A stretch of 28,618 bases of DNA, taken from the IMG/VR virus record IMGVR_UViG_3300010375_000045, positions 1 to 28,618 of that record, one strand, 5' to 3'. This document shows positions 2,859 to 28,272 of the stretch, in pieces. Position numbers and translations under genes: made by a program. This DNA comes from a virus. The notes below the pieces were generated by a model. That model was not told the DNA's origin. It did not search any database and saw nothing but the letters and a program-made list of their open reading frames with translations. Numbering within the stretch: position 1 is the stretch's first letter; every line of letters starts with the position of its first letter.

Positions 2859-3023
2859 TCCTTCGAGGCTCGGAGCTTCGCTCCTCGCACCTCAGGATGA
2901 CGCGTTTGGAGCGTCGTTATCTTTCGCGTTCTTACGCGGCAGCGCCAGCGTCACGGCGCGATTGAACAAACACCCAACTCGTCATCCTGAGGTGCAAGCC
3001 GAAAGGCGAGCCCCGAAGGACTT
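2857..3023. repeat. Palindromic intergenic repeat, copy 1 of the CACCTCAGGATGACG type
   Basis: Inverted arms GCACCTCAGGATGACG at 2887-2902 and CGTCATCCTGAGGTGC at 2980-2995 are perfect 16-base complements. Outer parts also pair: CCTTCGAGGCTC near 2859-2870 with GAGCCCCGAAGG near 3008-3019. The palindrome nearly fills the gap between the decoration gene, whose stop overlaps its left edge, and the major capsid gene. A second member lies at 10086-10150. I recognise it as a type of dispersed intergenic repeat of alphaproteobacterial chromosomes, from memory and without a search. Confidence 0.75.
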
Positions 3024-3037
3024 AACGGAGAACCCCC

Positions 3038-7734: not shown

Positions 7735-8145
7735 CTACGTCTTCGGCTCATACCCCGGCACCCATTTGGCGTGCTGGGGAAGATCGTCCGCGATCGTCCA
7801 CCACGGCGCGCATGACAACGTGAACACGTGCAGCATCGGGCGCACGCCCGGATCGTCGTCCAGAAGGCCGGCGGCGATGCTGACGGTGGGCAGATAGCTC
7901 GCCTTTCCCGGCGCGAGGCACCCGCAAACCTTGCAGCGCTTGCGGAAGCTGCCGGGCGAGGATTCGTATTCCACCATCATGTCGTCACCCGCGACCAGGC
8001 GGAATTTGTCCGCGTCGACATGCGCATAGGTGGCGAACGCCGCACCCGTGAGTTTGCGGCAATTGACGCAATGGCAATGCGTGAGCCCACGCACCTTGTC
8101 GATCTCGAACCGAATGCTCCCACACAGACAGCTTCCCCGGATCAT
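7735..8145 (-). CDS. GFA-family (glutathione-dependent formaldehyde-activating enzyme-like, CENP-V fold) protein
   Basis: A 136-aa zinc protein. Family marks are CLCGSIRFEI at residues 6-15, HCHCVNCRKLTGAAF near 23-37, and a CKVCGC cluster near residue 71: the CxC, CxxC-like and CxxCG cysteines that bind zinc in GFA/CENP-V proteins. The C-terminus APWWTIADDLPQHAKW matches the usual ending of the family. Some members react with S-hydroxymethyl glutathione, but most, probably including this one, have unknown substrates. The ATG at 8145 has an AGGAAGG ribosome site; the longer open frame to 8625 overlaps the plus-strand gene and was rejected. It stands alone on the minus strand between two tail genes and is therefore an accessory (moron-like) or inserted host gene. 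Confidence 0.85.
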   Translation of the reverse strand: MIRGSCLCGSIRFEIDKVRGLTHCHCVNCRKLTGAAFATYAHVDADKFRLVAGDDMMVEYESSPGSFRKRCKVCGCLAPGKASYLPTVSIAAGLLDDDPGVRPMLHVFTLSCAPWWTIADDLPQHAKWVPGYEPKT

Positions 8146-8221
8146 CGTTGGGCCTTCCTGGTTATTGGCTTCGTTGCATAGCGAGCCTTGAAGAGGGGCG
8201 CAATTCTTCCAAGGAGATACC

Positions 8222-8536: not shown

Positions 8537-9232
8537 ATGACCGTCCCTACTGAAGACCAGCTTGCCACCGCCGTTGCCACTTGGCGCGACGCCAGCGTCG
8601 GCATCGACGCCATTGCCGCGAACACGCCCGCCTACAATCAGATCTTCGTCACGCTCGACAGCCTGGTCGATGCGATGTTCGCCGACATCGACGATGTCGG
8701 CGAGGCAGCGGCCACGGCGGTGCTCACGTCGTCCGCCAACTATGCCGATGGCGAAACCGTCGTGATCGGCCTGCTCGCGGGTGGCACCAAGACCTATACC
8801 TTCCAGTCCACGCTCACGGACACCGACGGTCACGTCCATGTCGGCGCGAGCGAGGCGGCATCGATCCTCAATCTGCATCACGCCATCAATGGCACGGGCG
8901 GCACCGCGGGCACCGACTACGCGGCCTCGACCACGGCGCATCCCGACGTCATCGCCACCGACAACGGCACCCATGCGCTCACGATCACCGCCAACGAAGT
9001 CGGTGCGGCCTACAACGCCATCACGACGACCGAGACATCCGCCAGTGCGAGTTGGGGCGGCGCCACAATGACCGGCGGCGCCGGCGACGATCTCGATACC
9101 GTTTTGGGCGAGATTGACCTCTGGCGCGACACGCTGCGCTGCTACCCGCTCAACGCGGATTCCGGCGCCGAGGACCAGCTCGACGACGCGATCCCTGGCC
9201 TCAAGACAGCGGTCGCCGCGCTGTTCACCTAA
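8537..9232 (+). CDS. Tail-module structural protein with an inserted beta-domain
   Basis: A 231-aa protein with an AGAGGAG ribosome site. Residues 1-60 are helical (AIAANTPAYNQIFVTLDSLV) and the last 50 or so are helical again (LDTVLGEIDLWRDTLRC). Between them, about residues 70-180, lies a strand-rich T/A/G domain with ADGETVVIGLLAGGTKTYTF, VHVGASEAAS, ILNLHHAINGTGG and YAASTTAHPDVIATD. I recognise this as the widespread 'ADGETVTIG...YTF...LTDADG...AAIN' module of phage structural proteins. Insertion of such a module into a helical tail-completion or tube-associated protein would expose it on the virion. The role is inferred; the protein just precedes the tail tube. Confidence 0.55.
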   Translation: MTVPTEDQLATAVATWRDASVGIDAIAANTPAYNQIFVTLDSLVDAMFADIDDVGEAAATAVLTSSANYADGETVVIGLLAGGTKTYTFQSTLTDTDGHVHVGASEAASILNLHHAINGTGGTAGTDYAASTTAHPDVIATDNGTHALTITANEVGAAYNAITTTETSASASWGGATMTGGAGDDLDTVLGEIDLWRDTLRCYPLNADSGAEDQLDDAIPGLKTAVAALFT

Positions 9233-9274
9233 CCGCCCGCGCAATCCCATCTCAACATCGAGGAGAAATCACAC

Positions 9275-10054
9275 ATGGCCACCACCCCCGTGAAACCGTC
9301 CAAGGCGTTCGGCGCCGGCGACTTCTTCGGCGTCAACAACGTACAGAGCCCGACGCCGACATCGTTCGACACGCCGCAGGATATGTCCCTGTCGGTGAAG
9401 CGCGAACTCAAATCCATCACCGGCGTCAACCTGTTCCCGGATGATGTGAATGCCGGCGCGGCCTCGATCACCGGCAAGGTGACGATGGGCTCGCTCAACG
9501 GCCGTATCTGGGGCGATCTCGTCGCCGGCGTCGGCGCGTCCAAGGTCGCCAATATTGTAAGCGTCGCCAAGCGCGAGAAAGGCGTCGTCAGCAACGCAGA
9601 AAAAATTCGCGTCAAGAACTATGGTTCGGGCGTGTTCCTGCGCGATCTCGGCGTCCGCGGTCCGGAGAACCTCCCGTTCATTCGTGTCTCGAAAGCCAGC
9701 GCCATTGCGCATCTCAACCATTATTCGGTGACGACGGCGGGCGAGTACCAGTTCCACCACGACCGTGACGGCGATACGGTCGACATCACTTATGAGTGGC
9801 AGGGTAACGTCAACGGGCTGGGCGCGGTCTACAACATCACCAACCAGCCCCAAGGTGCGATCGGCGATTTCACCGCGGTGCTGGCGACGCGCTGGCGTTC
9901 CGAAGAGAACGTCTTCACGCTCAATTCCTGTATCGTCTCTGATTACGAAATCGCGACCAAGGGCGGCGATTACGCGAAGCCGACGCTGTCCTACCAGGCG
10001 CAGGCCGATGCCTACGACAACATCGGCACGTTCAGCTTTGCGCAGAATAGGTAG
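9275..10054 (+). CDS. Major tail tube protein
   Basis: A 259-aa protein with a GAGGAGA ribosome site. It is strand-rich with regular hydrophobic alternation, has an N-terminal arm (FGAGDFFGVNNVQSPTPTSF) and the segment MSLSVKRELKSITGVNLFPD, which sets up the tube-type beta-sandwich (strand, long loop, strand). Internal ITGKVTMGSLNGRIWGDLVA and a C-terminal SYQAQADAYDNIGTFSFAQ are typical of long-tailed phage tube subunits. Hexameric rings would stack along the tape measure. The size is in the usual range. The placement, after the terminator and before the chaperones and tape measure, is the normal position. A repeat of chromosomal type follows. Confidence 0.75.
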   Translation: MATTPVKPSKAFGAGDFFGVNNVQSPTPTSFDTPQDMSLSVKRELKSITGVNLFPDDVNAGAASITGKVTMGSLNGRIWGDLVAGVGASKVANIVSVAKREKGVVSNAEKIRVKNYGSGVFLRDLGVRGPENLPFIRVSKASAIAHLNHYSVTTAGEYQFHHDRDGDTVDITYEWQGNVNGLGAVYNITNQPQGAIGDFTAVLATRWRSEENVFTLNSCIVSDYEIATKGGDYAKPTLSYQAQADAYDNIGTFSFAQNR

Positions 10055-16697: not shown

Positions 16698-19271
16698 ATG
16701 GGCGGCTCTAACACGGAGAACAAGGGCAACCGGATCAACAGCTATCAGATCCAGTCCAGCGCCTATGGCAATCCAATCCCATGGGGCTGCGGTGCGGGGC
16801 GCGTCGATATCAACCTGATGTTCCTCGACGGTTTCACGTCGCACGAGCACCAGCAGCACAATGGCGGCAAGGGCGGCGGCAATTCGACAACCGATACCTA
16901 CACCTACACGGCAGACGTGTTGCTCGGCATCTGCGACACGGCAAGCGGGCCGATCCGCGGCATCAACCAGATATTCCGCGACAAAAGCGTGTTCCCCGGC
17001 TTCACCGATGGGAATAACGACGCCGATCCCGATCTCTGCGTAAAAAAAGCCGGCCTCAGTGCACTGCGCGTCGGCACGTCGGGACAGAACCCGTCGACCT
17101 TGTTCGACAAATATCCGGATAAGGCGCTCGGCTACGACACGACTTCCTATCTCGTCGGCTCGCAATACCTGCTCAACGATCAGGGCGGATTACAGAACCA
17201 TTCCGTCGAGGTTTATTTCGCCTGTCAGGTCGGCGGCGGTATCGTCGATGCCAATCCCGGCGATTACGCGGGCGCGAACGGCATCGTTCATACCTTCCTC
17301 GACGCCATGATCCCGCAATGGACCGATGCCAATATCGGCGATCTCACCGACTACGGCACCTATTGCCTGGCTGCGGGGCTTTTGCTGTCACCCGTGCTCG
17401 ACTCCCGGCAACAGGCCAGTTCCGTACTCGACGAGATCATGCTGGCGTCGAACTCGGAATGCTGGATGCGCGGCGATGGCACCCTGCAGGTCAAGACCCG
17501 CGCCGATGCGCCGATAACCGGCAATGGCGTCACATACACCCCTGACCTGACGCCGATTTACGATCTCGACCAGGACGACTTTATCGTCGATAACCCCGAC
17601 GACGATCCGATCAAGGTCGATACGCCGCAACTCGACGACCTCTACAACTATGTGCAGGTCACCTACAAAAACCGCCAGCATCAGTACAATGACGAAACCA
17701 CGCCGGGCTTCGACCAGGCCAGCATCGACGAGATCGGGAAGCGCAAACAGGACCCGACCTCGATCCCCTCGATCAAGGATCCGGCTGTTGCCCGTCTCGT
17801 CGCGCAGCTGCTGGCGCAGAAATCCTCCAGCCTCGCCCGCCCGTTCACGTTCAATCTGCCATGGTGCTTTGCGCGTCTCGAGGAAATGGACCTCGTCACG
17901 CTTACGAACGAGTCCCAGGGGCTCGATCGCGTTCTGTCGCGCATCACCGAAATCGACAAGGCCGGCGACACCGGCAAGCTGACGATCAAGGCGATCGAGG
18001 TGCTTGTCGGGACCGCCAACTCGCCGGTTTATCCGAGCCAGACGGCCGGCGGCGTGGTGACGGACCCGCAAGCCGATCCCGGCAGTGTGAACACGCCGGT
18101 TCTGTTCATCCCGCCCACCACGATCACGAATGGCGCCCTTGAGGCTTGGGCCGCGGTCGGCAGCACGAATTCCAATTGGGGCGGGGCCGACGTCTGGATT
18201 GCCTTCGATGACGGGGCCTTCACCAAGGTCGGCACGATCACGGGCCGGGCGCGCTACGGCGTTTCCACCAGCGATCTGCCGTCACATGCCGATCCCGACT
18301 TCGACGACAGCCTGGGTGTCGATATCTCCATTAGCGGCGGCGAGGCCCTTCTCAGCGCCTCGCAGGCAGAGTTCGACGCCTTGGTGTCGCTCTGCTGGCT
18401 GGGCGGAGAACTCATCGCCTACAAGGACGCCACGCTGACAGCCGAGGGGGTCTACACCCTCGGCACCGAACTCCACCGCGGCGCCTATGGCTCGCCTATC
18501 CAGGAGCATCCGGCCGGAACACCGTTTGTCCGCCTCGACGATGCGATCTTCAAGTTCGCGTTTCTGTCGGGACAGTTGGGCCATACCATTCATGTCCGCT
18601 TCGCCAGCTTCAACGCCTTCGGCAACCAGACGCAGGACTATGCCGACGTTGTGGATTACACACTCACGCTCACCCAGCCCGGCACGCTTCCCGGTTCGAC
18701 AACGGTTTCGCTGCAATCGGCATGGGCTGGCCTGCAGTTCACGGTGGCATGCTCGAGCGCAAGCGGCGCGCTCAGCTATATCTTCCGGGTCTATACGGTG
18801 GATGGTCTGACCTTGCTGCGGCAATCCAACGCCACACCGGCCCAGACCTTCACCTATACGCAGGATATGGCAGTCCAGGACGGCAATGTTGCGCGCTCCT
18901 ATGCCGTGACGGCGCAGGCCGTGAATTCGTCGGGAGACGGGGCAGAATCGACCAACCTTGTCGTGAGCAACCCCGCGCCGGCGATCATTACCGGCGTCGG
19001 TCACACCGGATCGGGCGGCAGCGTCACGATCAATTGGACCGCAAACACGGAGTCCGACAAGGCCGGTTATGTCGGCTACTACTCGCAGACCAGCGGATTC
19101 GATCCGACGCTTGGTGCCGGGGCCCTGTTCTATGAGGGCATCGCGAACACCGCGACACTGTCCGGCCTCACCCACGGTCAAACCTACTACGTGCGCATCG
19201 CGGCATTCGATACGTGGTCGGATGACGTTCGCGGCCTGAATTTCAGCGCGCAGCACAGCATCACGGCGTGA
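16698..19271 (+). CDS. Large tail-tip / host-specificity protein (GTA ORFg15-like)
   Basis: An 857-aa protein. The N-terminal part has the 'N-P-I-P-x-G-x-G' entry (YGNPIPWGCGAGRVDINL) typical of central tail-tip proteins. The middle (about 200-430) matches the phage tail-tip type with PFTFNLPWCFARLEEMDLVT and a 'D-R-V-x-x-R-I-T-x-I' strand (LDRVLSRITEID). A strand-rich part at about 480-650 includes LHRGAYGSPIQEHPAGTPFV, the usual 'R-G-x-x-G-T/S' feature. Two fibronectin-III-like domains close the protein (about 664-755 and 760-857; note GLTHGQTYYVRIAAFDTWS). It is the receptor-binding and baseplate core of the tail. It is shorter than the GTA homologue (I recall about 1300 aa). Its stop TGA overlaps the early part of the next gene. 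Confidence 0.85.
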   Translation: MGGSNTENKGNRINSYQIQSSAYGNPIPWGCGAGRVDINLMFLDGFTSHEHQQHNGGKGGGNSTTDTYTYTADVLLGICDTASGPIRGINQIFRDKSVFPGFTDGNNDADPDLCVKKAGLSALRVGTSGQNPSTLFDKYPDKALGYDTTSYLVGSQYLLNDQGGLQNHSVEVYFACQVGGGIVDANPGDYAGANGIVHTFLDAMIPQWTDANIGDLTDYGTYCLAAGLLLSPVLDSRQQASSVLDEIMLASNSECWMRGDGTLQVKTRADAPITGNGVTYTPDLTPIYDLDQDDFIVDNPDDDPIKVDTPQLDDLYNYVQVTYKNRQHQYNDETTPGFDQASIDEIGKRKQDPTSIPSIKDPAVARLVAQLLAQKSSSLARPFTFNLPWCFARLEEMDLVTLTNESQGLDRVLSRITEIDKAGDTGKLTIKAIEVLVGTANSPVYPSQTAGGVVTDPQADPGSVNTPVLFIPPTTITNGALEAWAAVGSTNSNWGGADVWIAFDDGAFTKVGTITGRARYGVSTSDLPSHADPDFDDSLGVDISISGGEALLSASQAEFDALVSLCWLGGELIAYKDATLTAEGVYTLGTELHRGAYGSPIQEHPAGTPFVRLDDAIFKFAFLSGQLGHTIHVRFASFNAFGNQTQDYADVVDYTLTLTQPGTLPGSTTVSLQSAWAGLQFTVACSSASGALSYIFRVYTVDGLTLLRQSNATPAQTFTYTQDMAVQDGNVARSYAVTAQAVNSSGDGAESTNLVVSNPAPAIITGVGHTGSGGSVTINWTANTESDKAGYVGYYSQTSGFDPTLGAGALFYEGIANTATLSGLTHGQTYYVRIAAFDTWSDDVRGLNFSAQHSITA

Positions 19272-19276
19272 GGAAT

Positions 19277-20890
19277 ATGAAAGCACAATCTCTGCTCGCC
19301 TTCGCTGCTTGGCTGCTGTGCTCGGGCCCGTCGGCTGGTGCTTCGGTCTCGTCGATCCCAGTTCCGATCCCTGAGACCTATATCCAGCACGACGTTTCGC
19401 TTCAGGGCGCAAACGGTCAGCTCGGGGTCAACGGCACCGTCACAGCCCGCCTCGACACAGCGAACACCTGGGCGCTGACGCAGACCTTTACCCTGGCTCC
19501 GGTCTTTACCGACCAGCCGGGAACGCGCACCGCCCTTGGCCTCGTGATCGGAACGAATGTCGAGGCATGGGACGCCGATCTGGACGCGCTCGCGGCGCTG
19601 TCGTCGACCGCTGGGATTTTGAAGCGCACGGGCGCGGGAGCGTTTGGGCTCGCCGTCTCCGGAACCGACTACGCACCGGCCACGAGCGGAAGCGCGGCGC
19701 AGCTCGGCAATGGGGCGGGCGGGTTTTCGGCCTACACCGGGACGGTGTGCACCGGACAGTTCGTCCGCAGCCTGTCCGCTGTAATCGTTGCCACCTGCAA
19801 TGCGGTTTCGCTCACCGCCGATGTGACGGGGGTGCTTCCGATCGCAAACGGGGGCTGCAATGCCTCTACGGTCGCGGGATGCCTGACCAACCTTGGAGTC
19901 GCACCGCAAAATCTGCTTGCCAATCCTTCGTTCGATGTCTGGCAGGAGAACACGACCTATTCGCCGAACACCGGCGTCAACACATTCATCGCCGACCGCT
20001 GGAAGGCGCGCACATTCACCACGGCGACCAATGGCACGCGCACCTATTCGCGTGTCGCTGGCTTCTCCGGCGCGCAGTACGCCGTCAAGATGCAGCGCGC
20101 GAACGGAAACGCCGAAACCGGCTCGGCAACGATCGGACAGCAGATCCTGTCATCCGACGCGATCCCGCTTGCCGGTAAAACCATCCACCTTGCGTGCGAC
20201 GCGAGTTTCGGGGCGAACGCCAGCAATTCCGCGATGACGGCGGTGCTGTTCTATGGGACCGGCATAGACGAAGTCGTGAATCTGAGTACCGGCTTCGCAA
20301 CGGGCGCGGGTAACTCCAACTTCTCGTCATCGCCAACCGTCACGGCCTCGACCACGGCCCACGTCGACTTCGGAACGGTCAGTGTCAACAGCGGCGAAAC
20401 GGAAATCGCAGTTCGCATCTCGTCTGGAACTTATTCTGGTACAGCGGGCGCTGACGACAGCATTTCGCTCACGAATTGCAATCTGACTGTCGGTAGCGGC
20501 GACGTTCCCTTTGCACATCCGCCCCTCGTCGAGACGATGGCGCGCGCGCAGTTCACCTATCGAAAATCGTTCGTCTACGCGACCGTTCCAGCGCAGAACG
20601 TCGGCACCGGCACCGGAGAATTCAAGTGGGGTGCTGAGATTGCGGGCACGGGGACCGAGCGCGCGACCGTCGTGTTCGGAAGCGCCATGTTCGCGGCGCC
20701 GACAATCACCCTCTACAACCCCGCCGCCGCGAATGGCGCCTGCCGTGACGAGACCGTCCCTGGCGATGGTGGCACGGCTGCGGCCGGGAACATCACCGAA
20801 AAGGGTTTCGAGGTCACGTGCACCGGAAACGCCAGCACGGCAGTCGGTAATCCTATAGCAGTCCACTACGTCGCCGATATCCGCAGATAA
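19277..20890 (+). CDS. Tail fibre-like protein with apparent signal peptide
   Basis: A 537-aa protein. The ATG at 19277 has GAGGA five bases upstream; a GTG at 19268 is possible but weaker. Residues 1-22 look like a Sec signal peptide (MKAQSLLAFAAWLLCSGPSA), unusual for a virion fibre. The stalk contains standard fibre modules: NVEAWDADLDALAALSSTAG and LTADVTGVLPIANGG followed by LTNLGV. A carbohydrate-binding-like domain follows (NLLANPSFDVWQENTTYSPN and FIADRWKA, about residues 213-240 onward). The C-terminal part (about 415-537, with ARAQFTYRKSFVY, AGNITEKGFEVTCTG) is related to the C-terminus of the next gene. It probably recognises a surface glycan. Confidence 0.7.
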   Translation: MKAQSLLAFAAWLLCSGPSAGASVSSIPVPIPETYIQHDVSLQGANGQLGVNGTVTARLDTANTWALTQTFTLAPVFTDQPGTRTALGLVIGTNVEAWDADLDALAALSSTAGILKRTGAGAFGLAVSGTDYAPATSGSAAQLGNGAGGFSAYTGTVCTGQFVRSLSAVIVATCNAVSLTADVTGVLPIANGGCNASTVAGCLTNLGVAPQNLLANPSFDVWQENTTYSPNTGVNTFIADRWKARTFTTATNGTRTYSRVAGFSGAQYAVKMQRANGNAETGSATIGQQILSSDAIPLAGKTIHLACDASFGANASNSAMTAVLFYGTGIDEVVNLSTGFATGAGNSNFSSSPTVTASTTAHVDFGTVSVNSGETEIAVRISSGTYSGTAGADDSISLTNCNLTVGSGDVPFAHPPLVETMARAQFTYRKSFVYATVPAQNVGTGTGEFKWGAEIAGTGTERATVVFGSAMFAAPTITLYNPAAANGACRDETVPGDGGTAAAGNITEKGFEVTCTGNASTAVGNPIAVHYVADIRR

Positions 20891-20939: not shown

Positions 20940-23054
20940 ATGCAGTTCGTCCAATACCTTTGCACGCTTCCGAGCAACGACACCTACGGCTATATCCAGG
21001 CCCTGCCGTTGGCGAAGGTGTATGTATATGTGACCGACGATACCGGCGTGAGCGGCGCGCTTGCGCAACTCTACGATGCCGCAGGCGGCGCGATCGGAAA
21101 CCCCGTCACCGCGGATATCAATGGTTTCGCCGGGTTCGCGGCAGACGACGGGCTCTACAACATCCAGGTCACGGATGCGGACGGCGTGCGCAATGCACCG
21201 CTCGCGGTCAAGGTGCAGCTGTTCGATCAGACATCTTTCACTGCAGTCGCTGGCATCATCGAGCAGGCCGTGATCGGTCCTGGCTCGTCTGCGGACGGCC
21301 ATTTCATGCTGTTCGACGGAACGACTGGTGCGGCAGCAAAAGACACCGGGCTCTCGCTCTCCACTGACGGGACGCTTGGGGCGAACAGCGACAGCCGTCT
21401 TCCGAGTGAGAAGGCCGTAAAGACAGCCATTGCCGCCGCCCAGCAGGTCAAGCTTTCTGCCGATACCACCTACTATGTCCGCACCGATGGCAATGACAGC
21501 AACACCGGAACTGCGAATACATCGGGTGCAGCATGGCTGACACTTCAGCATGCCGTGGACTATGCTGCGACGCTGGACCTCAACACCCATACACTGACGA
21601 TTCAGGTCGGAGACGGGACGTATTCGGCAGGCGTGCTCAAGAGCACAGCCTTCAACCGCAATGGAACCGTTGTCATTCAGGGCAACACGACCACTCCATC
21701 AAACTGCATCATCAGCGTCGCGTCTGGCGATTGCCTGCAATTTACGAACTGCACATGCACGATCAAAGGCTTCAAACTTGTTTCGACTGCAGGTTATGGT
21801 CTGAATGCCGTGCGCTCGCTCATCACCGTAGGTGGGGCGATGGAATACGGCGCTTGCGGTCTTGGCCACATCAACGCCACACAGACTGCCACGATCTCTA
21901 TCGCGGCGAACTACACGATCTCAGGAGGCGCGCCAAATCATCTTATAATCACCAATTCCGCGATCACGTTCGCAGCTGCTTTGACCATTACGCTGACTGG
22001 TACGCCGGCGTTTTCAACAGCTTTTGTGACCGTCACGTTTCTTGGACTTCTCAGTCTCCCGACGAACACGAGTTTCTCGGGAAGTGCGACCGGTAAAAAG
22101 TTCATTGTCAACGATATGTCCGCCGTGAGCGTCGGCCAAAGCAGCACGACCGGAACGTCTTTGATCGATATCTTCCCAGGCGATATTTCAGGTGGCTATG
22201 GCCAGCGCCAAGACGGTATGCGCTCGTTCCGTAACCTGATCTATAACCCTGACGGCAGGGTGCAAGAAGGCCCTTCGAGCGCCATAGGAGATATCGCGTA
22301 TGGTCTTCACAATCGCTGGTACGGGCTGACCCAGACCTCCACGATGACGCCGACCACAATTTTGGACGTGACCGACGGGGTCACCCATCTCATTGAACTT
22401 ACCAATGGCTCCAGCGCTCAGCGCTTAGGCTATGCCCAGGTCATCGAGGGCAAGCAGTGTAAATATCTGCGCGGGGCTGACGTGACGCTTTCTGGCCAAG
22501 CCCAGCGCAATCAGACGGGCGGCGTGGGCGTCGCGATTATCGAATGGATCGGAACTGAAGACAGCGTCACCAAAGAAATCGTCAATGACTGGACCAACGC
22601 GACGCTCACGGCTGGAAACTTCTTCGTTTCTTCGAACATCATAGTAGACGGGGCGTTGGCCCTAAATCCAAGCGCTGGCGTCCTTACAAATTTTCTTCTT
22701 CAGGTGACGCTTGGCGAGACTTTCAACAATCTCATTGTGTTCATTTGGGCGCGCGGCAACGCGACGGCCAATACCGGAACCATGGATTTCCGGATGCAAC
22801 TAGAGAGCGGCAGAAAACCAACATCTTTCGAGCGGCGCCCGATTGAAGTGGAAGAAAACTTGTGCCACCGCTTTTACGAGTCATTCACGGTCCAGTCGGA
22901 GAATGGTGCGCGCAATATCCCGCTTCTGAAAAAGCGCATAACCCCGAGCATTACCGTTGGTGTCGGATCGGCAAGCGCTATCACGAAGAACGGATTTGAA
23001 CTGACCCATAGCGCAGCGGCGGCATGCACGGTAATCGCGAACGCAGAACTCTAG
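20940..23054 (+). CDS. Tail spike / fibre protein with probable beta-helix
   Basis: A 704-aa protein with an AGGAAAG ribosome site. The N-terminal anchor (FVQYLCTLPSNDTYGYIQAL, LAKVYVYVTDDTG, then GFAGFAADDGLYNIQVTDA) is a classical tailspike head domain. After SRLPSEKAVKTAI comes a pectate-lyase-like beginning, TTYYVRTDGNDSNTGTAN and AWLTLQHAVDYAA (about 178-208), then repeated short strands with N/T/S-rich turns up to about residue 390. This suggests a right-handed parallel beta-helix that may bind or cut polysaccharide. A second domain (about 420-640) and a C-terminal module (ENLCHRFYESF ... GFELTHSAAAACTVIANAEL) finish it. Catalytic residues cannot be identified. Its TAG overlaps the sulfotransferase stop in CTAG. 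Confidence 0.7.
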   Translation: MQFVQYLCTLPSNDTYGYIQALPLAKVYVYVTDDTGVSGALAQLYDAAGGAIGNPVTADINGFAGFAADDGLYNIQVTDADGVRNAPLAVKVQLFDQTSFTAVAGIIEQAVIGPGSSADGHFMLFDGTTGAAAKDTGLSLSTDGTLGANSDSRLPSEKAVKTAIAAAQQVKLSADTTYYVRTDGNDSNTGTANTSGAAWLTLQHAVDYAATLDLNTHTLTIQVGDGTYSAGVLKSTAFNRNGTVVIQGNTTTPSNCIISVASGDCLQFTNCTCTIKGFKLVSTAGYGLNAVRSLITVGGAMEYGACGLGHINATQTATISIAANYTISGGAPNHLIITNSAITFAAALTITLTGTPAFSTAFVTVTFLGLLSLPTNTSFSGSATGKKFIVNDMSAVSVGQSSTTGTSLIDIFPGDISGGYGQRQDGMRSFRNLIYNPDGRVQEGPSSAIGDIAYGLHNRWYGLTQTSTMTPTTILDVTDGVTHLIELTNGSSAQRLGYAQVIEGKQCKYLRGADVTLSGQAQRNQTGGVGVAIIEWIGTEDSVTKEIVNDWTNATLTAGNFFVSSNIIVDGALALNPSAGVLTNFLLQVTLGETFNNLIVFIWARGNATANTGTMDFRMQLESGRKPTSFERRPIEVEENLCHRFYESFTVQSENGARNIPLLKKRITPSITVGVGSASAITKNGFELTHSAAAACTVIANAEL

Positions 23055-23806
23055 GCAACGGTTTCGCAGGCGTTGAACGGCTCATAGCCCAGCAGCGGCA
23101 GTGCATCCGGGAAGCGGGTCATAAAGGCACGTGCCAGATCATCGTCGAACACGTCGCGCCACTGCTTGGCGGCGCCGGATCTGATGTGGCCGGGATGGGC
23201 GGCACTTCGTTTCGCGCCACCGGCAAGCGAGTTGGCCAGAAAGGCTGATACTGCAACGTCAATTTCACCGCCGGTTAGGCCGAGATGCTTTGCCGCCTTT
23301 GGAAACTCATCAGTACCATTGGTCAACAGCGTCTCATACTTCGTTTCGAAACATTCAGGCCGGCTGTATTTCCACGCGCACATGCCGCTTATGGTTTCTG
23401 CTGAGGAGTGGTCCATCTCGAATAGCATTCGCGACTTATCGTCCGGGAGGCTATTCAAAGCCTGCTGATAGGTTTTCCCGCCGAACCGATCTTCTGGACG
23501 GTGCAGCCACTTCTCAACCGATGCTCGATGATAGTGCATCGCTGATATCACTACATCGCGCGGGTCTCTGATGACGTGAAGAACACGATCTCCATTCTCA
23601 GGCGACGCCTTCGCAAACCACTGAGAGTGCATGTCCCGCACAAAGCACGCCGAGGTCGGCAGCGCCCAAGCGGTATCCTTTGGCGAAGGCTTTACGTAAG
23701 GAACGCGGATCGCGGTGGCGATGGCCAGAAACACGCTGTCCATCCAGACCGTTCCGGTCTTGTGATGCGTGCAGATAACTGCCCGGTTTTTCATGGGCCG
23801 GACCAT
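23051..23806 (-). CDS. Sulfotransferase family protein
   Basis: A 251-aa enzyme. Both PAPS-binding signatures are visible: the 5'-phosphosulfate loop CTHHKTGTVWMDSVF (Lys16, Thr17, Gly18, Thr19) and the 3'-phosphate site HVIRDPRDVVISAMHYH with Arg80 and Ser88, as expected for sulfotransferases moving sulfate from PAPS to a hydroxyl group. The acceptor is unknown; in this position, next to tail spikes, a surface polysaccharide is a reasonable guess. I chose the ATG at 23806; one at 23794 is possible. Only 39 bp separate its start from that of the divergent hydrolase, so promoters overlap. It is on the strand opposite to the fibres and is probably expressed in the lysogen. Codons look somewhat less GC-rich than in the head genes. 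Confidence 0.8.
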   Translation of the reverse strand: MVRPMKNRAVICTHHKTGTVWMDSVFLAIATAIRVPYVKPSPKDTAWALPTSACFVRDMHSQWFAKASPENGDRVLHVIRDPRDVVISAMHYHRASVEKWLHRPEDRFGGKTYQQALNSLPDDKSRMLFEMDHSSAETISGMCAWKYSRPECFETKYETLLTNGTDEFPKAAKHLGLTGGEIDVAVSAFLANSLAGGAKRSAAHPGHIRSGAAKQWRDVFDDDLARAFMTRFPDALPLLGYEPFNACETVA

Positions 23807-23845
23807 ACCGCCCGTCACAATTCCTGACAAACGCGAGGGTTCGCT

Positions 23846-24553
23846 ATGCTGGTTGATGGGGCGACAGTGATCGCAGCCGGGCGAAAGAGAACGGATTTCG
23901 GCTATCGGCTGCTGGTGATACCGGTCGAGGAACCAGGCCTCTACGTGTATGGCAACCCGGTCCCGGTGCTGGACGCGTGGGCGACGTCGCGAAACGTGAA
24001 CACACCATACCGCTATCTCGACACCGTGGGACGCACCTGGGGCTGTAATCACCCGACCGACCCGACATTGCAGGACGAGGACACCATTGTCGCCGCAGCG
24101 AACGGTTGGACCGACGAACTGACGGCGGCGGGCAAGGCGGCATGGCCTATACTGCTGCTCGGGTTCAGCGCGTCAGGCTTTGCGTCGATGTCGCTTTTGG
24201 AGCGCCACCCCGATGTGTTCGCAGGCGCCATCGTGTTCGATTGCCCGCTCGATGAGCAGGACATCTCAGTATCGCCACACTGGGATATGCTGACGTACTT
24301 CGAAAACCAGGACTATTTCGCGGCTAACTATCGGCTGACAGACCTGAGCCGGCTTGGCACGCTAGCAGGGAAGAATGTCGCGCTCAACTTTCGGGCAGAC
24401 GGTACAAACGAGTTCCTGCCGCAGATGATCGCGTTCGCCGGCCTGCTTTGCAGCAGTCATATAAACCACACCGCGCGTTTCACAGACTCATTGCATCGCT
24501 GGGACAGCGGATGGGTTGAAGACGCGCTCGATAATTTCCTAGTGGATTATTGA
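23846..24553 (+). CDS. Alpha/beta hydrolase (putative esterase)
   Basis: A 235-aa protein with a GAGGG ribosome site. The nucleophile elbow is LLLGFSASGFASMSLLERHP: Ser108 in GFSASG, where Ser110 replaces the usual first glycine, followed by the helix and the strand AGAIVFDCPL. A late histidine in SLHRWDSGWVEDALDNF is a fair candidate for the triad, and an Asp may be in RADGTNEFLP. N-terminal strands YRLLVIPVEEPGLYVY fit the fold. No signal peptide. The substrate is unknown. On the same strand as the fibres and next to them, it could be a deacetylase-like enzyme acting on a receptor glycan, or a surface-modification enzyme paired with the divergent sulfotransferase. The role is inferred. Confidence 0.65.
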   Translation: MLVDGATVIAAGRKRTDFGYRLLVIPVEEPGLYVYGNPVPVLDAWATSRNVNTPYRYLDTVGRTWGCNHPTDPTLQDEDTIVAAANGWTDELTAAGKAAWPILLLGFSASGFASMSLLERHPDVFAGAIVFDCPLDEQDISVSPHWDMLTYFENQDYFAANYRLTDLSRLGTLAGKNVALNFRADGTNEFLPQMIAFAGLLCSSHINHTARFTDSLHRWDSGWVEDALDNFLVDY

Positions 24554-24599
24554 GGGTGAACGTATCTACGGCCCCGCAACCTGCGTGCGGGCAAACCAG

Positions 24600-26312
24600 T
24601 TATGAGCCACCACTGCGGCTTCGCAACATCAGAAGAAGGCGTCTTAGGTGCGATGGCCGACTTTGGCGGGAAGGGAGCATTTGAAGCAGTTGGGTCACAC
24701 GCTGTTGCGCCGCTTTCGTTTCGGGAATCGCCTCGCGCAATATTGAAGCCGCTTCGGAAAAGCGCTTTCTTTCGATCAGGAATTCAGCGAACTCGATGGA
24801 GGTCGAGCAGGCGCCCTTACGAATATCGAGAGCTTTGCGGTAGGCTGCTTCGGCCTGTGCGTCGTCACCTCGCTTGGCGTGAATGTACGCGATGCGGGCC
24901 ACCGCGTCCCAACGCTCGCCTCCAGCTTTCAACAAATTCCAGCGGATCGTGGCGGCAAGCGCGTCGTCCCAGCGTTCTGCTTCTATCAATGCCTCCGCCA
25001 GTGTACGCGGAGGAATGCCCCATTTTGGAAACCGCTCCATCAGTGCATTCAGTTCGGCGATTCCTTCTGCGGTTCGTCCATCCAGAAGTTTGATCCGGGC
25101 GTCGATAAATCTCCGCTGTCTGTCGTCGTCCGCCGCGGGAGGCAGTTTCGCCAGTACCGCTAATGCATCTTTGAGACGTCCGACGCGAAGGCAGCAATCG
25201 ATATAGAGATGCGCTGCGGATGGATCGAGATGCGCGCTATCGCGGATCGGCTCCAGGCATCGGATCGCACCAAGCGGGTTCCGCATCTGGATTTGTTCAT
25301 TGGCTTCCGTCAGCGCGGCGGCGATATCCGCTAGTTCCGCAATGCGGGACGTCGGGCTGTAAGCTTCGATCATACGCTCTACATTGACGTCCACGAGCTC
25401 GCGCGTGACATGAACCTGATCCTCTGCCCAAGCGATCGAGCGCTCGCTGAGAGTCACGCTTTCGTAAGATGGATAATAGTCGACATGCCCATGCTGCGTG
25501 GCAATGTGTTCCGCCGCGGCACGCAGAACGGACTTGGAATAGCAGTTCGCGACAATGGCATCGTTTTCCGTGTGCGTTGTGGCTAACGGGACGGGAGAGA
25601 CGATCAGCAGAATGCGCTGATCTTGCCGGCAGTGTCTCTTGAGCAGCCCGATCGTGCGTTCAAGCGAGGCAAGCGTGTCCGCGAAATTCAGAATATGGAG
25701 CTGAAAGCGCTCAGGTGCTTTTGCCATCATCGATCGCGGCGGTCCGTGGTTGAGGTAGCACTGATTTAGCGTATCGAACCAGACTTCGCCGAAATCCAGT
25801 GTCATTATGACAATGCGGCAATCGGTGACGTGGCGCGTGACTTCGGTAACTGCCTTGCGATAGACGGTTATTCTTTCAAGCGGGAAAGCATAGTGCCTTC
25901 CGATGTTCGGATCGATGAAGCGCCCTGGGGCAATTTCCAGGAACTGCTTCTCAGGATCGAAAGGGTGATCACTATCGAGCGCCCAACGAAATTCGTTCTC
26001 GATGGATGTCACGCTATAGTTGTTCAGGGCCTCAATACCGATCGTATTGATGGCGTCATCCGGCCACGTGACTGTGGAAGTCGCAATATCGTAGCCGCGA
26101 TGAAATAGCGCCCTCTCGATGTGCCTCGCGAAACTGGAGCCAATTGCGAATATGCGGTCGCCGAATTCGATCTGAAATCCCGGAGTGAACGCCGGCTTGC
26201 AGATCGGTTCGATGCGGTTCGCGTCCGGAACGTCCCGGCGCGGAATCTCGCCGAACAGGTTGTGACGGACATTCTCGACAGCGTCGGAACTCGAAATCAC
26301 GCGAAGCGGCAT
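24600..26312 (-). CDS. GSCFA-domain protein with C-terminal TPR repeats
   Basis: A 570-aa protein, ATG preceded by GGGACGGG. The N-terminal 320 residues fit the GSCFA family: IFAIGSSFARHIERALFHRG (residues 54-73, here GSSFA instead of GSCFA), followed by NTIGIEALNNYSVTSIENEF, IVIMTLDFGEVWFD and LIVSPVPLATTH near residue 240. GSCFA proteins are related to SGNH-type hydrolases/acyltransferases and are often found with polysaccharide genes. The C-terminal 230 residues are helical TPR-like repeats (for example RLKDALAVLAKLPP, GDDAQAEAAYRKALDI). The fusion suggests a glycan-modifying enzyme held in a protein complex. There is no membrane segment. It converges on the hydrolase gene. Exact activity is unknown. 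Confidence 0.75.
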   Translation of the reverse strand: MPLRVISSSDAVENVRHNLFGEIPRRDVPDANRIEPICKPAFTPGFQIEFGDRIFAIGSSFARHIERALFHRGYDIATSTVTWPDDAINTIGIEALNNYSVTSIENEFRWALDSDHPFDPEKQFLEIAPGRFIDPNIGRHYAFPLERITVYRKAVTEVTRHVTDCRIVIMTLDFGEVWFDTLNQCYLNHGPPRSMMAKAPERFQLHILNFADTLASLERTIGLLKRHCRQDQRILLIVSPVPLATTHTENDAIVANCYSKSVLRAAAEHIATQHGHVDYYPSYESVTLSERSIAWAEDQVHVTRELVDVNVERMIEAYSPTSRIAELADIAAALTEANEQIQMRNPLGAIRCLEPIRDSAHLDPSAAHLYIDCCLRVGRLKDALAVLAKLPPAADDDRQRRFIDARIKLLDGRTAEGIAELNALMERFPKWGIPPRTLAEALIEAERWDDALAATIRWNLLKAGGERWDAVARIAYIHAKRGDDAQAEAAYRKALDIRKGACSTSIEFAEFLIERKRFSEAASILREAIPETKAAQQRVTQLLQMLPSRQSRPSHLRRLLLMLRSRSGGS

Positions 26313-26973: not shown

Positions 26974-27303
26974 ATGAAACGAAGGCTGGCGGCCGCACTG
27001 GCCGCATGCGTGGCCGTTGCCTTTGCGGGTTGCGGCACGCTTACCACGCAAACGCCGAAGCAGGCGCTGACCGCGGCGCACCAGGCGCATGACGGCCTCG
27101 CCAAAGAACTCGATCTCGCCGCCACCAATGGCTGGATCAAGGGCGAGGCGGCGGCGACCGCGGCGCGGGTTCTCGCCGAAAGCGAGAGCTATCTCACCAA
27201 AGCCGACGACGCACTGGCCGCGGGGCAATCGATCGATGCGCTCCTCGCGCTCGCGAACGCCGACATCGCCAAGGTTCAAACGCTCATTCCGGAGAAAAAC
27301 TGA
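26974..27303 (+). CDS. Phage lysis-region lipoprotein
   Basis: A 109-aa protein with a GGAG ribosome site. MKRRLAAALAACVAVAFAGC is a lipoprotein signal with the lipid-modified Cys20 (lipobox FAGC), so the mature protein should be anchored in a membrane, most likely the outer one. The rest is helical: TPKQALTAAHQAHDGLAKEL and AESESYLTKADDALAAGQS, a pattern I know from small lipoproteins next to holin genes in proteobacterial prophages ('T-P-x-Q-A-x-x-A-A...A-D-x-A...A'). The function is unknown; an outer-membrane disruptor or spanin-like role is possible but unproven, since there is no proline-rich Rz1-type stretch. The stop overlaps the next start (TGATG). Confidence 0.7.
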   Translation: MKRRLAAALAACVAVAFAGCGTLTTQTPKQALTAAHQAHDGLAKELDLAATNGWIKGEAAATAARVLAESESYLTKADDALAAGQSIDALLALANADIAKVQTLIPEKN

Positions 27304-27521
27304 TGGATTATCTCGCGCTCCTGCAAACCATCCTCGCCGCGTTGTCTCAGGCGCCCGAGGCCATCCAGATCGCCGAGGACGCGTATAATGGCGTGCGCGC
27401 ATCCTTCGGCATGGAAGATCAGGCCACGCTCGACAAGATGTTCGCCGACGCGAAATCGACCGACGCCGCCGATACGGCAAAGGCCGTCGCAGATCTCAAC
27501 CAGGCCGCACAGGAGAACTGA
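27303..27521 (+). CDS. Small lysis-region protein of unknown function
   Basis: A 72-aa soluble, acidic, helical protein (MDYLALLQTILAALSQAPEA, then DQATLDKMFADAKSTDAAD). Its ATG overlaps the lipoprotein stop and its stop TGA is one base before the ATG of the holin-like gene, so the three are probably translated together. No membrane segment is evident, although the first 16 residues are hydrophobic and amphipathic. No family is recognised. It may support or regulate the holin; this is only from position. Confidence 0.6.
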   Translation: MDYLALLQTILAALSQAPEAIQIAEDAYNGVRASFGMEDQATLDKMFADAKSTDAADTAKAVADLNQAAQEN

Positions 27522-27522
27522 C

Positions 27523-27723
27523 ATGATCGTGGACGACAGCAAAAGCATCTTCGCATCGAAGACCGCATGGGTGGGCGCGGCGGTGACCATCGTCGGCGCG
27601 CTGCAGGCGCTGAATTGGACGCAGCTCATTCCGAGTGGTGCGGCGGCGGGCTACATCGCCTCGGGTCTCGGCGTCGTGATGATCGCGCTGCGCTTCCTGA
27701 CGTCGAAGCCGGCAACGCTCTAG
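27523..27723 (+). CDS. Holin-like small membrane protein
   Basis: A 66-aa protein with two likely membrane helices, about residues 15-33 (AWVGAAVTIVGALQALNW) and 43-60 (AGYIASGLGVVMIALRFL). The start SKSIFASKTAWVG and the end RFLTSKPATL are the pattern of a common group of two-helix prophage proteins ('S-K-T-x-W...V-x-x-x-x-R-x-x-T-x-x-P'), often annotated as holin or holin-like. It would make holes in the inner membrane at lysis. The size suits a pinholin-like or class II holin, but no functional proof is visible. An ATG at 27388 in the same frame was rejected because it lies within the previous gene. Confidence 0.65.
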   Translation: MIVDDSKSIFASKTAWVGAAVTIVGALQALNWTQLIPSGAAAGYIASGLGVVMIALRFLTSKPATL

Positions 27724-27765
27724 CGTGCGCTGAAGCGCCCCCGCGTGTAGTATCGGGTGATCGCT

Positions 27766-28272
27766 ATGACGCTAGACCCGCCAAAAGGTCGTGTGATCGC
27801 CAACGATCCGAAGGATGAAGCGATCGCGGCCGTGATCGAGACGGCCTCGAAGCTCGCGAAGCCGAAGCGCACAGTACGGATCCTGGGCTTTGAGGTCGCG
27901 GTCGATCCGAACCTCAACACGATCATCGCGGCGCTCACGCTTATCGGCCTTCTGATAACCGCGACGGGTTCTGTCTACGCCTTCATCAACAAGCCCCTCG
28001 AGAATGCGCGACGCATCGAAGACGTGCAGAACGAGATCGGAAAGCCGGGCACGCCGGGATACCTGCCCGGCGTGGTGCGCGGCATGGCGCATCGCATGGA
28101 CCGCGTCGAGCAGATGGTGAAGCAGAACCACGACGACACGCTTCAGGCGCTGCGCGATATCGAAGCCCAGCTGAAAGACCAGCGCCGCGAAAATTCCGAC
28201 CGCTTCGACCGCCTCGACAACCGCATCGACCGCTTCGTGGAGCGCACCAAGCCCGATCCCTATCCGCGCTGA
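27766..28272 (+). CDS. Membrane-anchored coiled-coil protein
   Basis: A 168-aa protein; ATG at 27766, with a GTG at 27757 as an alternative. Residues 1-50 are charged and cytoplasmic-like, 53-74 form one membrane helix (TIIAALTLIGLLITATGSVY), and 80-168 are strongly charged helix with heptads (VEQMVKQNHDDTLQALRDI, RFDRLDNRIDRF), a likely coiled coil. It ends in PDPYPR. One membrane helix plus a long periplasmic coiled coil resembles i-spanins in layout, but orientation and order are not certain. It is the last gene before a strong terminator, so it belongs to the lysis unit. An endolysin is absent from this unit in the window. Confidence 0.65.
   Translation: MTLDPPKGRVIANDPKDEAIAAVIETASKLAKPKRTVRILGFEVAVDPNLNTIIAALTLIGLLITATGSVYAFINKPLENARRIEDVQNEIGKPGTPGYLPGVVRGMAHRMDRVEQMVKQNHDDTLQALRDIEAQLKDQRRENSDRFDRLDNRIDRFVERTKPDPYPR

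Follow-up and report, generated by a model that had tools for sequence, protein, structure and literature searches.

A Variable Gene Slot Beside the Spike Gene of a Soil Siphophage and Its Putative Polysaccharide-Modifying Enzymes

Introduction

The IMG/VR record IMGVR_UViG_3300010375_000045 is a soil phage sequence of 28,618 bases, analyzed here as a complete record (hereafter the window). Between its receptor-binding spike gene and a group of small late genes lie three genes (23051-26312), which encode a sulfotransferase, an alpha/beta-hydrolase-like protein and a protein that joins a GSCFA domain to tetratricopeptide repeats (TPR). This region is best read as a variable slot, adjacent to the spike, for accessory genes (morons); it is mostly filled with enzymes able to alter polysaccharide and holds no fixed three-gene cassette. 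In related phages this position is occupied by different enzymes, most of which modify sugars, and the region thus looks like an exchangeable slot. Whether the enzymes in this slot of a siphophage or prophage change the surface receptor of the phage's own spike is, in our judgment, an evenly balanced question.

In the proposed mechanism, the sulfotransferase would transfer sulfate from host 3'-phosphoadenosine-5'-phosphosulfate (PAPS) to a polysaccharide of the cell surface or to a precursor of it. The GSCFA protein, which belongs to the SGNH clan, may add or remove an ester group on a like substrate, with its TPR part providing a surface for docking. The hydrolase encoded on the plus strand may act late on glycan ester groups. 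Together or singly, these enzymes would alter the receptor of the own spike and hinder re-infection by similar phages, by a logic like that of serotype-converting phages. A more specific version, which we hold tentatively and regard as rather unlikely, has the spike-adjacent slot either sulfate the host surface polysaccharide (sulfotransferase) or strip sulfate from it (sulfatase, relative G005), with the GSCFA-TPR protein as a second ester modification and with co-evolution of spike specificity and slot content.

Gene Content of the Spike Junction

Relatives of the capsid protein are encoded on 51 viral contigs and relatives of the tail tip on four. Profile searches of 38 related records, many of which are fragments that stop short of the slot, found the GSCFA family PF08885 in a single record and the sulfotransferase family PF00685 in none. 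The single record (L054, also G004; IMGVR 3300025924_001061, 32 kb) is the nearest phage with a slot region, and its major capsid protein is 98% identical to that of the window. In L054 the GSCFA-TPR gene follows the spike directly on the minus strand and is the sole one of the three genes present there. The last bases of the spike gene, GAACTCTAGG, are identical in both phages, and they include a CTAG in which the stop codons of two convergent genes overlap; the partner of the spike in this CTAG is the GSCFA-TPR gene in L054 and the sulfotransferase gene in the window. The sulfotransferase and hydrolase genes of the window, which are divergent with 39 bp between their starts, occupy exactly the junction between spike and GSCFA gene, so that the pair must have come or gone separately from the GSCFA gene. 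On the sequence, the simplest account would be that the pair was inserted at this junction or was deleted from L054, in either direction. Repeats of note were not found on the flanks of the pair.

Searches beyond these records gave little. Single-sequence searches of the viral contigs and of 50,697 annotated phages returned no relatives of any of the three proteins, a two-sequence GSCFA profile recovered the known relative only, and none of the three proteins matched a PHROG family well enough to be of use. Two of the three genes were seen together at no other locus compared. The first-pass annotation of this DNA had described a surface-glycan conversion cassette, and its three intact open frames, two of them on the minus strand, are confirmed; as a set, the trio does not hold up. 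It had also named a host genome with the same trio in a metabolic context as a possible refutation. Among 385 alphaproteobacterial genomes no such trio was seen: relatives of the sulfotransferase occur in four, of the long GSCFA-TPR protein in two (G397 and G319) and of the hydrolase in none. One genome, G319, has close relatives of both the sulfotransferase and the GSCFA-TPR protein, on different contigs.

Slot Contents in Related Phages

With the tail tip as anchor, the slot was located in twelve relatives (Table 1). The most suggestive single observation is that one phage carries a sulfotransferase and another phage with the same capsid family carries a sulfatase in the same place, with one case each. 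The usual sulfatase active-site motif is Cys/Ser-X-Pro/Ala-X-Arg; the sulfatase of this relative (L066), whose capsid protein is 80% identical, has CAVSR, without the usual Pro/Ala. Other slots hold a gene of the sialate-O-acetylesterase type (SASA), a methyltransferase or a membrane protein. A glycosyltransferase identity of the GT-C type for the membrane protein of L061 and L069 was dropped, as it found no Pfam, PHROG or PDB support. Oriented against the tail genes are the methyltransferase, the membrane protein and the BrnT/BrnA toxin-antitoxin pair of the relatives, as well as the sulfotransferase and GSCFA genes of the window, while the sulfatase and SASA genes of the relatives and the hydrolase gene of the window run with them.

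The spike next to the slot shares 73% amino acid identity with that of L054, and its centre diverges fastest (about 58-63% in the middle, 80-100% at the ends); by inspection the middle is repeat-rich and of the beta-helix type. Thus, the surface-glycan role proposed in the first-pass annotation keeps part of its support, in the position beside a fast-diverging spike and in the sulfatase, SASA esterase and methyltransferase of the relatives' slots, and loses the part that relied on the three genes as one set.

Several observations weigh against a slot that serves to change the receptor. Six of the twelve relatives (L060, L063, L064, L065, L067, and L068) have no recognizable enzyme in the slot, only tail and late genes. 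The toxin-antitoxin pair in L055 indicates that the slot is not reserved for glycan-active genes. The closest sulfotransferase relative on a named plasmid sits within a Ruegeria succinate dehydrogenase (sdh) operon, and the homologue in G319 lies next to an integrase-like gene. The GSCFA domain of the window has GSSFA in place of GSCFA and TLDF (TLDFGEVW) in place of TLGL (TLGLxExW), both of which the L054 copy retains. Promoter and terminator scans stayed at chance level, with no promoter above chance.

Some of these points favor functionally unrelated morons, an explanation that we regard as possible though unlikely: the slot would collect any short host gene, and the three genes would serve different ends, such as sulfation of small molecules or lipids, detoxification or defense. 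The trio is not conserved, the pair and the GSCFA gene have separate histories, a relative's slot is also occupied by BrnT/BrnA, sulfotransferase homologues have unrelated neighborhoods, among them the sdh operon, and authors who worked on other phages consider it unclear what phage sulfotransferases do (PMC10580990). However, a sulfatase, a SASA esterase, a sulfotransferase and an SGNH-clan protein beside the spike make up a chemistry more uniform than random expectation, for which no random sample was scored.

The Enzymes of the Window

For the sulfotransferase, the identity proposed earlier is borne out by a Sulfotransfer_1 match above the cut-off and by intact motifs. THHKTGTVWM, IRDPRDVVISAMHYH, and HIRSGAAKQWR are kept in an alignment with five homologues (37-44% identity), and the 5' and 3' PAPS-binding motifs and the C-terminal RxG...W are all present. 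The open frame extends over 23051-24052, its upstream part overlaps the hydrolase gene, and the most likely start is the ATG at 23806 or 23794, which gives a product of about 247-251 amino acids. The nearest sampled sulfotransferases (41-44% identity) are those of G319 and G105. A remoter plasmid homologue belongs to a polysaccharide cluster with an O-antigen ligase and glycosyltransferases. A sequence search of solved structures with the three slot proteins yielded SULT, TPR and hydrolase matches, all of them weak.

For the GSCFA-TPR protein the domain assignment stands, on a PF08885 match far above the cut-off and a TPR_19 match, while the acyl-type activity once ascribed to it does not follow from the family: GSCFA is an SGNH family without known activity according to a 2022 review (PMC9487903). 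Because no member has a known activity, the role given to it here is a guess from the SGNH clan. The proteins of the window and L054 are 51% identical, and identity between the two GSCFA domains at codon positions 1, 2, and 3 is 0.72, 0.80, and 0.47; since the first two positions are better conserved than the third, the gene appears to have been kept under selection. The window protein retains Ser59 and D298..H301 and has a C-terminal tail about 20 amino acids longer than that of L054. Its altered signature residues suggest that its activity may be different or weakened. An AlphaFold model reached a predicted local distance difference test (pLDDT) value of 69, and its TPR half resembles TPR folds in the PDB; among the matches listed, essentially all are TPR or other helical-repeat proteins.

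Chromosomal GSCFA-TPR proteins of Alphaproteobacteria resemble the phage copy in domain order and length (34-43% identity), but they stand outside a phage context: G397 has two divergent copies amid SGNH-like genes and G319 a lone gene amid housekeeping genes. Shorter GSCFA proteins are commoner. The paired divergent genes of G397 (L102 9752-17972) are flanked on either side by proteins with SGNH (GDS) motifs. The short GSCFA proteins of a Phaeobacter (L057 9647-12339) and of G319 (L107 7511-10039) adjoin a phosphoglycerate-mutase-type gene and another small protein whose start is GNSH-like, a neighborhood that recurs.

The hydrolase-like protein is the least certain. Its earlier identification as an esterase is probable on sequence features: it has a putative nucleophile elbow, GFSASGF, in which Ser replaces the second Gly, and a relative in a Streptomyces plasmid protein (30% identity over 175 amino acids), with elbow and HRWD conserved between the two. 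However, the protein matches no family in Pfam, PHROG or NCBIfam above the cut-off, the best matches being Hydrolase_4 (E=0.17), Esterase (E=0.21), and an NCBIfam model at 0.12. An AlphaFold model from the single sequence (pLDDT 34) was too poor to use. A homologue of this hydrolase neighbors a sugar-phosphate nucleotidyltransferase gene.

Lysogeny, Expression During Infection and Decay

The minus strand had been taken as a sign of expression in the lysogen, a claim that loses its force here. In the relatives, the genes downstream of the late region are encoded on the minus strand, and some of them are of replication type (by inspection, helicase-like and ParB-like), so the slot genes on this strand may be no more than early genes. 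No integrase was found in the 28.6-kb record. Among 21 records, many of them fragments, a tyrosine integrase occurs in one (G008, which has a methyltransferase in the slot) and a serine recombinase in none.

The left end of the window bears on this point. Positions 1-178 hold a fragment of RibD_C (dihydrofolate reductase-like), of bacterial type (E=4e-7), and 217-729 an unrelated minus-strand open reading frame. Homology to all related phages begins abruptly at 781, upstream of which the relatives have the portal and terminase genes. This suggests a truncated prophage beside host DNA or a misassembly; the former is considered because a host-like RibD fragment sits at the end of the record. The RibD_C end is the best sign of lysogeny within the window.

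These observations bear on a role during infection in the absence of any lysogen, an explanation that seems quite improbable to us. The hydrolase would then be a late virion- or lysis-associated esterase, which deacetylates the receptor glycan or opens an envelope layer at lysis, and the minus-strand genes would be early. The hydrolase gene is co-oriented with the late genes, the SASA and sulfatase genes of relatives are likewise on the late strand, most relatives lack an integrase and have minus-strand replication-type genes, and esterase activity belongs to the SGNH tail fibers of both Klebsiella prophages and G7C (PMC13123978). However, the RibD_C fragment and the tyrosine integrase in a relative of the same capsid family indicate that at least some members of the group are probably temperate, and this account deals poorly with a minus-strand transferase.

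A decaying prophage, in which the three genes are remnants without current function, is very improbable. It would fit a record that lacks terminase and portal genes and abuts the RibD_C fragment, the two large internal deletions of the close relative L003, and a GSCFA protein with two signature residues gone and an added tail at the C terminus. Yet the three frames are full-length, the sulfotransferase motifs are intact, and the left junction could just as well stem from metagenome misassembly. The variable slot with receptor-changing enzymes remains our preferred reading.

Phage Backbone and Flanking Genes

According to Pfam and PHROG matches, most of the window is a siphophage late region (Table 1). 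The slot was placed by the first-pass annotation between spike and lysis genes; the spike is supported by its PHROG match, while the genes at 26974-28272, where the conserved backbone resumes, lack a confident Pfam or PHROG family and are probably lysis genes. In L003 only, an endolysin-type gene (Rv2525c/PHROG 291) lies just past the matching stretch. The tail-associated gene upstream of the spike has no family in the Pfam or PHROG scans. The slot genes and the spike gene have a guanine-cytosine content of 0.56-0.59, vs. 0.62-0.63 for the backbone. Matches of the major capsid protein in the 385 alphaproteobacterial genomes, sought in order to assign the host, reach only 28-39%.

Three further features were noted. 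A gene of the GFA type (formaldehyde-activating enzyme-like, PF04828, 8.9e-16) lies antisense within the tail module (7738-8094, minus), and L003 has one too (8913-9305). L003 (IMGVR_UViG_3300025949_001124), the relative with the internal deletions, has its portal gene fused to the next gene, and the equivalent of window position 8172 is joined to that of 27635, followed by the Rv2525c-type glycoside-hydrolase/endolysin gene. Between genes, at 2860-3030, an inverted repeat of the 'cctcaggatgacg' type precedes the major capsid gene, with a related inverted match in L020.

Table 1. Features of the window and of the corresponding slot in related phages.
Feature	Location	Position	Strand	Evidence and remarks
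Siphophage late region	Window	~781 to ~28,355		Order: cement protein, major capsid (PHROG 1005), neck protein, long tape-measure-like protein, tail tip, spike, three slot genes, small late genes
Tail tip/host-specificity protein (Phage-tail_3, Rcc01698_C, fn3)	Window	16698..19271	+	PF13550 7.9e-20; PHROG 1101 5.6e-80
Tail-associated protein	Window	19268..20890	+	Open frame, strong phage codon score
Tail fiber/spike, receptor-binding	Window	20940..23054	+	PHROG 4492 8e-23
CTAG, overlapping convergent stop codons of spike and sulfotransferase	Window	23051..23054	.	GAACTCTAGG in window and L054
PAPS-dependent sulfotransferase (Sulfotransfer_1)	Window	23051..23806	-	PF00685 E=3.1e-9, 37 bits vs. 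cut-off 22
Alpha/beta-hydrolase-like protein, 235 aa	Window	23846..24553	+	GFSASGF elbow, C-terminal HRWD...W, remote homology
GSCFA (SGNH clan)-TPR protein, 570 aa	Window	24600..26312	-	PF08885 E=6.3e-35, 121.5 bits vs. cut-off 25; TPR_19 1.5e-12
Late genes, probably lysis region	Window	26974..28272	+	Amino acid identity 86-92% to L054, 90% to L003
Sulfatase with SGSH_C (N-sulfoglucosamine-sulfohydrolase C-terminal domain)	L066	3160-4545	-	PF00884 1.3e-29; directly after tail genes
BrnT/BrnA toxin-antitoxin pair	L055	14675-15209	-	Adjoins SASA-type gene, PF03629 3.8e-15
Methyltransferase	L062			PF08241 5.4e-9
Membrane protein, ~400 aa (401 aa)	L069, L061			No family

Relation to Known Surface-Conversion Systems

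If the slot works as proposed, phage-driven surface conversion would include sulfate in addition to acetyl and glucosyl groups, the uncharacterized GSCFA family would gain a testable biological setting, and a simple comparative handle would be available, namely which slot enzyme pairs with which spike. Precedents are the acetylation and glucosylation of O-antigen by D3, P22, and Shigella phages (PMC11436027), prophage Wzy (PMC13228068), and prophage tail fibers with SGNH esterases (PMC13123978). The serotype-converting genes (Oac of D3, GtrABC of P22 and Shigella phages) are likewise accessory genes outside the structural core that alter the receptor polysaccharide. However, they encode O-acetylases or glucosyltransferases with proven products, whereas for the window both sulfation and a reaction of the SGNH-clan type are predictions. 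Neither a gtr gene nor one for an AT3 acyltransferase was found there.

Burkholderia prophage morons (PAPS reductase/sulfotransferase, PMC2920897) also place a sulfotransferase-type gene in siphovirus-like prophages, but in another host group and with no link to a spike or GSCFA gene. In an alphaproteobacterium, LpsS of Sinorhizobium meliloti sulfates lipopolysaccharide (cited in PMC12445080). LpsS is a chromosomal Stf0-family enzyme regulated with symbiosis genes, while the phage protein matches Sulfotransfer_1. The SGNH esterases in receptor-binding proteins of temperate phages (Klebsiella prophages, G7C gp63.1) likewise place an SGNH-clan enzyme at the spike region, where it is expected to act on acyl groups of surface glycans. 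These esterases are virion tail-fiber domains of other SGNH families, in contrast to the GSCFA-TPR protein, which is encoded by a separate minus-strand gene and carries TPR repeats. Conceptually, the slot may be akin both to phage surface-conversion genes such as D3 Oac, P22 Gtr and prophage Wzy and to the esterases found near receptor-binding proteins.

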